Positions 10,210-10,876 of a stretch of 64,000 nucleotides of DNA are shown here, in pieces. A program made the translations under genes and the position numbers. The first letter of the stretch is position 1. Each line of letters begins with the position of its first letter. This DNA is from Bacilli bacterium (GTDB lineage: Bacteria > Bacillota_I > Bacilli_A > RF39 > UBA660). The notes under the pieces were generated by a model. It saw only the letters and a list, made by a program, of their open reading frames with translations, was not told the DNA's origin and ran no database searches. The stretch covers positions 91,268 through 155,267 of the forward strand of contig JAFSDH010000010.1 in NCBI GenBank assembly GCA_017436345.1, read 5' to 3'.

Positions 10210-10234
10210 AAAAAGAGCTTTAAAAAGCTCTTTT
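10210..10234 (-). terminator. Terminator after the ubiquitin gene
   Basis: The hairpin AAAGAGCTT/AAGCTCTTT ends in a U-run on the minus strand, followed by the ATGTTATAAT promoter region of gene 9698. Confidence 0.85.
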
Positions 10235-10876
10235 ACATTTTTTTACATATATCATAATACTAATAAGACTAATTAATGATAAAGAACCAGATAATATAAA
10301 TAAATTAATATTATCACTAGTTTTAGGATTTGTTTCTTTTACAATTTCAATACCAGATGCCGTTATTTCTATATCACCAACAACCACATCACTAAAAATG
10401 ACAACTTCCCCATTCTCTTTATTATAAGTATATTTATCAGTTACTTCACCATTAATAAAAATAGTTATAACATCAGGCAGCTCATACCCTTCATTTTTAA
10501 TTAAAGTCGTTTCATAATTTTTACCAAATTCAGCTTTTTCTAAATTAGAACTAGTTAAATTAGATAAATTATAAATAACATCATAATTAACTAATTTTAA
10601 TAATAAATGAACTGTACTATCTTTTTGTATTTCATAATCAGCTAAAGTTCTTCCATCTTCTAATTGGTCCCCAGCAAAAATTAATCTTTGTTGTTGAGGA
10701 AGAATTCCCACTTTATCATAAATTTTTGACTTAACAGCTTCAACAGTATCACTGGACTCAACTTCTAAAGTAATATTAGTCCCATCAATCATCTTAACAA
10801 AAATTTGCATCGCAAAACAATTTGACGGAAAAACTATTAATAACAAAATAAATATAAGGAATAAATTCTTCTTCAT
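10220..10876 (-). CDS. Secreted, cell-surface-anchored ubiquitin protein
   Basis: Residues 1-22 are a signal peptide. The predicted cut (NCFA before MQIFVK) leaves ubiquitin Met1 as the mature N-terminus. Residues 23-95 align without gaps to human ubiquitin 1-73, with 53 identities by hand count. Kept are Lys6, 27, 29, 33 and 63, Ile44 and His68; Lys11 is Thr and Lys48 is Asp. The C-terminal RGG is replaced by VNY and the chain continues, so ordinary E1 activation is not expected. Residues about 96-178 form a beta-rich module shared with the protein at 12807. NPKTSD (183-188), a membrane span and a basic tail form a sortase-type anchor. The start is the ATG at 10876 after AGGTGA; a GTG three codons upstream overlaps that site. 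The gene is as AT-rich as its neighbours and has its own terminator. Confidence 0.93.
   Translation of the reverse strand: MKKNLFLIFILLLIVFPSNCFAMQIFVKMIDGTNITLEVESSDTVEAVKSKIYDKVGILPQQQRLIFAGDQLEDGRTLADYEIQKDSTVHLLLKLVNYDVIYNLSNLTSSNLEKAEFGKNYETTLIKNEGYELPDVITIFINGEVTDKYTYNKENGEVVIFSDVVVGDIEITASGIEIVKETNPKTSDNINLFILSGSLSLISLISIMIYVKKCKRAF

Follow-up and report, generated by a model that had tools for sequence, protein, structure and literature searches.

What is a eukaryotic-type ubiquitin doing behind an export signal in the genome of a Bacilli bacterium? Ubiquitin is usually viewed as an intracellular modifier of eukaryotes, and BfUbb, which Bacteroides fragilis secretes, as an isolated bacterial oddity. 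BfUbb is reported to be cut exactly before Met1, to be 63% identical to human ubiquitin, and to end in Cys without a C-terminal Gly-Gly (PMC3352274, PMC5705921), and its carrier is called "one of a few bacteria" (PMC5705921). The gene considered here lies in a stretch of 64,000 nucleotides (the window) and encodes, in this order, a signal peptide (MKKNLFLIFILLLIVFPSNCFA), ubiquitin from Met1, a stalk, and an NPKTSD anchor (Table 1).

Table 1. Features of the ubiquitin gene and its surroundings, in window coordinates.
Feature	Position	Strand	Details and basis
Wall-anchored ubiquitin gene (anchoring probable)	10220..10876	minus	218 aa from ATG 10876; stop TAA 10222-10220
AGGTGA ribosome-binding site	10882..10887	minus	Sequence; 5 bases upstream of ATG 10876
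Signal peptide, residues 1-22, C-terminal SNCFA	10811..10876	minus	Sequence; Ala-Met junction in relatives; model helix
Ubiquitin head, residues 23-95	10592..10810	minus	Pfam, human alignment, predicted model
Stalk module	10331..10591	minus	No Pfam family
NPKTSD sorting-like motif	10313..10330	minus	Sequence; comparison of 15 proteins
Anchor remainder: hydrophobic segment and basic tail KKCKRAF	10223..10312	minus	Sequence; model helix 186-217
Intrinsic-terminator-like hairpin over stop codon	10211..10234	minus	Hairpin scan
Neighboring exported protein, 374 aa; no ubiquitin; stalk related, anchor NPNTSD	12807..13931	minus	Sequence, Pfam

The ORF lister had placed the start of the gene at GTG 10885, giving 221 aa; this codon overlaps the ribosome-binding site, so the 218-aa product is likelier, and an identical protein on other contigs (P0020) has the same ATG start. 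Terminator-like hairpins numbered eight in the hairpin scan, against 0.5 expected in shuffles. Over the stalk end and anchor, 36 of 95 residues match the exported neighbor; these two genes are also the only places in the genome where the DNA pattern for NP[K/N]T-x-DN was found. Around them are genes for hydrolases, a pseudouridine synthase-like protein, and desulfoferrodoxin; neither E1/E2-type genes nor a toxin or immunity gene adjoins the ubiquitin gene, judged by the ORFs and the Pfam matches of its neighbors. Elsewhere in the window, an FtsZ-like protein of only 315 aa (4144-5091) appears by eye to lack the usual C-terminal tail, and a BspA-like leucine-rich-repeat protein (62335-63540) is by eye another likely surface protein.

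The head of the protein is identical to human ubiquitin at 53 of 73 residues without gaps, which reproduces exactly the hand count of the first-pass annotation, a reading of the DNA letters and ORF translations. The protein matches PF00240 (E 1.5e-25; 89.2 bits against a curated cut-off of 25.4), and ubiquitins occur throughout the best 60 of 374 PDB sequence matches. The structure prediction suggested in that annotation gives a head with the ubiquitin strand order (pLDDT about 79-87) that fits PDB ubiquitin 5yt6_A with an rmsd of 0.5 (Foldseek), many single-ubiquitin chains fitting at 0.5-1 Å, while the stalk is modeled with low confidence (pLDDT 42-75); the head is thereby predicted to have the beta-grasp ubiquitin fold. 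At its C-terminus, the head reads LKLVNY(DV) where ubiquitin has LRLRGG, and is followed by the 123 residues of the stalk and anchor. The loss of Gly-Gly makes the role of a conjugated tag impossible, and conjugation of the head to targets was accordingly ruled out. On the Ile44 side, R42, I44, G47, Q49, and H68 are kept and L8I, V70L, and R72K are changed; residue 48 is Asp, not Lys. A single ThiF gene is present elsewhere in the window genome, on a different contig, but 12 of the 14 control genomes have this family too, and a search for UCH deubiquitinases was silent for the window genome and equally silent for the controls.

The annotation had also read the signal cut as exposing ubiquitin Met1 exactly, and a comparison of the window protein with 14 relatives from its family and order agrees with this prediction: in all 15 proteins, the signal peptide ends in Ala directly before Met1. 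All 15 likewise carry an NPxT-like anchor with a basic tail (in L108 as the variant VPETGD). Judged by sequence, the window protein has the full layout of a sortase substrate (signal peptide, sorting motif, hydrophobic segment, basic tail); its genome has four sortase matches over cut-off, and in the relative L002 the ubiquitin gene adjoins a sortase gene whose class B match exceeds the curated cut-off. Wall anchoring, as already proposed, is best described as probable: the NPKTSD motif, hydrophobic stretch, and basic tail are present, though the NCBIfam LPXTG model gives this anchor 12.9 bits, below its cut-off of 15.9, and so does not call it. Lipoprotein anchoring via Cys 20 was rejected, since PSNC is no lipobox by eye and relatives lack that Cys.

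The gene is bacterial, since its composition matches that of its flanks and the same protein occurs on other contigs. GC is 0.23 in the kilobase of the gene, as in the flanks, with even composition across the region. A search with the window protein (best 120 of 7801 matches, dominated by eukaryotic polyubiquitin) placed the identical protein P0020 on at least six other contigs among the matches listed, the longest of 348,517 bases. When the C-terminal region was used as the query, six proteins were found, with versions of this region 94-98% identical on three further contigs; P0121, 73% identical in the C-terminal part, keeps the layout. The window itself lies on a 155,267-base contig of a 1.70-Mb genome (96.1% complete, 5.75% contaminated).

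Within the lineage, PF00240 matches were obtained in 5/196 relatives, 20/386 genomes of the GTDB family, 14/385 of the order, and 4/392 of the phylum, these sets overlapping, and in none of the 14 controls. Reading of the family loci gave an intact ubiquitin with the signal peptide directly before Met1 and an anchor in 13 of the 20 genomes; the other seven comprise one false positive, one broken copy, one frame with a stop (L021), and four very diverged sequences (L015, L016, L017, L020). The same junction is found in two genomes from another family of the class. Absence of the gene from the rest of its lineage, which the first-pass annotation had named as grounds for doubt, is contradicted by these genomes, though a ubiquitin of the window type was found in none of the eight other genomes of the window genus. 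Three relatives have named twins: MAGs from the colon of a goat and the rectum of a water deer, and an isolate called SIG196.

Several loci of the lineage deserve mention in their own right. L019, L109, and L110 were discarded as false positives, their longest frames reading as rluD-, ABC-, and ribosomal-protein-like. The broken gene copy (L018/L023, genome G361) carries the same genus label as G056. The exported ubiquitin-like protein of L017:2-766 has diverged strongly, and a nearby frame (L017:1117-1770) looks sortase-like by eye. In L013 and L022, the gene and its 300-base flanks are identical in bins of different genera, so this contig is probably misplaced, or was transferred very recently. 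L004 and L006 are near-identical (72/73 in the head, 218/223 in the C-terminal part) in two genera, both near contig ends.

Beyond the lineage, a single-sequence scan of GTDB genomes returned no match, but a scan of GTDB species genomes with an alignment of eight heads succeeded: 302 pattern stretches yielded 217 confirmed relatives, of which the best 80, ranked against L002, were kept, the scan patterns favoring residues 9-17 and 47-55. A signal peptide directly precedes Met1 in 59 of these best 80 of 217 (by a heuristic requiring small residues at -3 and -1); in eight kept loci, it is followed by a short linker ending in PTG, PSG, or PAG, in one (L089) by another linker, and 12 loci have no signal peptide, are cut by a contig end, or look eukaryotic. 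Records whose titles do not call them MAGs account for ten of the 59 (L033, L039, L065, L082, L086, L091, L092, L096, L098, L102), for example Dyella OK004, where the gene lies on a 1.3-Mb contig, and two (L061, L063; both MAGs) are named as methanogenic archaea. An export signal directly before ubiquitin is thus predicted from sequence to be encoded in many unrelated bacteria, across many phyla.

What follows the head differs greatly among these proteins. The domain scan covered 74 of 83 ORFs (nine were dropped for want of a signal peptide, or as L079/L099, and three long ORFs were cut at 900 residues) and gave ubiquitin in 74, Autotransporter in 16, Dockerin in 10, IPTL-CTERM in four, Flg_new and fn3 in three each, SLH and SdrD_B in two each, and a T9SS tail in one. 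Among these, the Autotransporter, Dockerin, IPTL-CTERM, SLH, and T9SS partners are components of cell surfaces. The head is always at or near the predicted mature N-terminus and the C-terminal parts are unrelated; of 62 ORFs with a signal peptide, only 6 have Gly-Gly after LRLR. No neighboring gene recurs across lineages, the largest cluster comprising 6 of the 80 kept loci; a 336-aa family (e.g., L084:426-1433) with no Pfam match adjoins the ubiquitin gene in L035, L046, L058, L069, L084, and L092. In Pedobacter cryoconitis (L082:7183-8585), four diverged short signal-peptide ubiquitins stand in tandem with no anchor, a BfUbb-like layout.

Some of these genes are on mobile elements. Plasmid pRUMAL01 of Ruminococcus albus 7, typed as mobilizable, encodes a signal-peptide ubiquitin (WP_013483628.1; L114:3989-4729) among genes with similar fiber-like parts, the second next of which has an NPATG-type tail, with a transposase nearby. 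Six contigs in IMG/VR match, five of them of the types with the signal peptide directly before Met1. In L119 (2322-7108), genes for a terminase large subunit and a portal protein come about 0.9 kb after a ubiquitin gene whose product has an IPTL-like tail, and the same terminase/portal pair follows such a gene in L121 (1800-6067); the L120 locus shows neither. From this gene order, L119 and L121 are predicted to encode a phage-borne surface ubiquitin; a search of INPHARED phage records gave no match.

The supposition of the first-pass annotation that the gene came from a eukaryote or another bacterium is supported insofar as its ancestry is horizontal. The tree of ubiquitins proposed there was built with 119 heads (84 prokaryotic, 35 eukaryotic); the two kinds are mixed in it (16 label changes against 24 or more in 200 shuffles; the nearest neighbor strictly prokaryotic for 44 of the 84), and the tree does not resolve a single origin and can neither date nor count transfers. 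Most of the kept loci match human ubiquitin at 62-72 of 73 residues. GC3 of the head tracks the GC of the locus (r = 0.91 over 56 ORFs, one gene, L007/L029, being counted twice), which indicates that the codons have adapted to the host genome. In close pairs, the head is under purifying selection, with dN/dS of about 0.05-0.15 (L055/L071, dN 0.018 and dS 0.29; L053/L072, 0.024 and 0.38; L035/L092, 0.064 and 0.43), which is ordinary for a folded bacterial domain; in Methylotenera, constraint on the head does not exceed that on the remainder of the protein (dN 0.064 vs. 0.079 at the same dS). Eukaryotic ubiquitin is constrained far more tightly than these bacterial heads. Given the ordinary dN/dS, the closeness to human ubiquitin points to repeated, fairly recent acquisition as much as to constraint.

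Heads may also have been exchanged between otherwise similar proteins. L007 and L013 agree at 21 of 24 residues in the signal peptide and 170 of 223 in the C-terminal part, against only 19 of 43 in head residues 31-73, and dS is about 1.1 in the head against 0.38 in the C-terminal part; the raised dS points to head exchange by recombination, not to dN above dS. The L013 head is itself predicted to have the ubiquitin fold (pLDDT 80-94; rmsd 0.7 to 7owc_A).

Which face of the head is conserved bears on its function. The Ile44 side is the one read by most eukaryotic ubiquitin receptors. Judged from aligned sequences, the D58/helix side is nearly invariant in the window's group and the Ile44 side is variable. 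Among the 11 heads of this group, which was defined by taxonomy and motifs and not by a supported clade (12 were aligned, L006 being dropped as a near-copy), identity is 0.98 in the D58 patch (R54, T55, A57, D58) and 0.97 at helix-start residues 18-25, compared with 0.50 in the Ile44 patch, 0.61 for Ile36, and 0.64 for Phe4. The D58-plus-helix value was reached by none of 20,000 random non-core position sets, the split having been chosen after the alignment was viewed and the list of hydrophobic-core positions being assumed; surface positions 18-25 and 54-58 together are kept at 0.975, compared with 0.87 for that core. In a second group of six heads, the contrast is weaker (D58 0.96, helix 0.86, Ile44 0.79; p 0.12). 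Outside the window's family, 71 distinct heads from bacteria and archaea average 0.92 identity to human at the nine positions of the Ile44 patch, with positions 19, 20, 22, 28, and 57 loose, a pattern to be read with the residues favored by the scan in mind.

We propose, with a probability of roughly 0.45, that the ubiquitin head, set behind a predicted export signal and before a stalk and predicted wall anchor, is a non-conjugatable binding module at the tip of a surface protein. Signal peptidase would free ubiquitin Met1, a housekeeping or class B sortase would attach the protein to the wall at NPKTSD, and a partner on a neighboring cell would be bound noncovalently by the head. Based on the window's group, the Ile44 sheet side would vary between species as a specificity surface does, and the helix-start and Asp58 side would be kept as a constant scaffold or docking side. 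A wider picture is a shade more tentative: prokaryotes may repeatedly have taken eukaryotic ubiquitin, Met1 always outermost, onto nearly every surface anchor of their own, and in the gut Bacilli of the window it may serve as a naturally occurring binding head built on the ubiquitin scaffold, its sheet face free to change while the back stays constant, and may pass from lineage to lineage, in part on plasmids and phages.

Two other functions seem unlikely to us, to a similar degree. One is mimicry, by which the head would be shown to eukaryotes (host cells, ciliates, or grazers) as bait or ligand for ubiquitin readers, mainly via the Ile44 patch. The closeness of heads outside the window's group to eukaryotic ubiquitin, with the Ile44 patch so well kept over 71 heads, would suit such a role, as would the Ile44-side residues that the window protein retains and the extracellular activities of eukaryotic ubiquitin described in PMC10892293. 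In the window's group, however, the Ile44 side is the variable one, and the window protein has Asp in place of Lys48; the closeness to human could also stem from acquisition that was repeated and recent, and the scan patterns favored part of the compared residues. It also counts against mimicry that we know of no extracellular receptor for these bacterial ubiquitin proteins. The host mimicry or immune engagement that the first-pass annotation had offered is, for vertebrate hosts, not supported as the general role, since signal-peptide ubiquitins also occur in Methylotenera, Dyella, Methanothrix, and other carriers that we take to be free-living genera; a bait for ubiquitin-binding proteins, also offered there, is a possible role.

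The other is that the tethered head inhibits susceptible neighboring bacteria on contact, as BfUbb does in secreted form. Of the members that share the Met1 cut, only BfUbb has been tested; it inhibits other B. fragilis strains and, according to PMC5705921, needs no immunity protein. The patchy distribution (20/386 family genomes matched, none of eight congeners), plasmid and phage carriage, divergent tandem copies in Pedobacter, and head exchange on a constant stalk in L007/L013 would all be in keeping with antagonism. However, BfUbb is a free protein of about 76 residues and the window protein is predicted to be anchored, the window gene has no adjoining toxin or immunity gene, and bovine ubiquitin was reported inactive in the same study (PMC5705921), so the ubiquitin fold alone does not inhibit.

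Less likely still is a passive cap, in which surface proteins would have gained ubiquitin simply as a terminal piece of high stability and protease resistance. The position of the head at or near the mature N-terminus before unrelated C-terminal parts, and its ordinary dN/dS, would fit; however, the repeated recruitment of this single fold would then be coincidence, and positions 18-25 and 54-58, on the surface, are better kept in the window's group than the assumed core. Eukaryotic sequence joined during assembly or binning, a concern of the first-pass annotation to which some kept loci that look eukaryotic or lack a signal peptide (L057, a tetra-ubiquitin, L076, L095) and the two-bin identity of L013 and L022 lend color, is refuted for the window gene by its bacterial flanks, composition, and codon use and by its protein on six further contigs, and ubiquitin genes on the complete R. 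albus plasmid and in isolate genomes make it extremely improbable.

If the binding module is displayed as predicted, prokaryotic surfaces would repeatedly include ubiquitin as an extracellular component, uncoupled from conjugation, and nature would offer a case of ubiquitin serving as a binding scaffold; such display could also give gut bacteria a route to present a self-like antigen. The cultured carriers (Ruminococcus albus 7, Dyella, Pedobacter) offer a handle on what reads ubiquitin outside cells.

No description of a wall-anchored or widely distributed secreted bacterial ubiquitin was found in the open-licence literature; as far as that literature tells, the anchored form and its breadth are new, and a secreted ubiquitin cut at Met1 was already known in BfUbb. 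As described in its papers, BfUbb resembles the window protein as a eukaryotic-type ubiquitin with a predicted cut at Met1, no Gly-Gly, a patchy distribution, horizontal acquisition, and a similar identity to human, and differs in being released, about 76 residues long, Cys-ended, and inhibitory to B. fragilis, whereas the window protein has a stalk and predicted anchor. Secreted ubiquitin effectors of Globodera nematodes also have ubiquitin behind a signal peptide, but, according to PMC5705921, are eukaryotic, not anchored, and act in plant cells. With eukaryotic ubiquitin (PF00240), the window protein shares sequence, predicted fold, and a free Met1 after predicted cleavage; unlike it, the window protein lacks Gly-Gly, is predicted to be exported and anchor-fused, and has no conjugation machinery adjoining its gene. 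The bacterial ubiquitin-like conjugation operons of antiphage defense are cytoplasmic and include E1/E2 genes; they have the ubiquitin-like fold in common with the window gene, which has no such genes beside it. Gram-positive sortase-anchored proteins share the signal peptide, stalk, NPxT-like motif, hydrophobic segment, and basic tail, although the window motif is not LPXTG and was missed by the curated model. Engineered ubiquitin-scaffold binders (Affilins and ubiquitin variants, found among the PDB matches) likewise use the ubiquitin fold with a changed sheet-side surface as a binding head; unlike them, the window protein is natural, and is predicted to be exported and anchored, with a putative role as a binding head.
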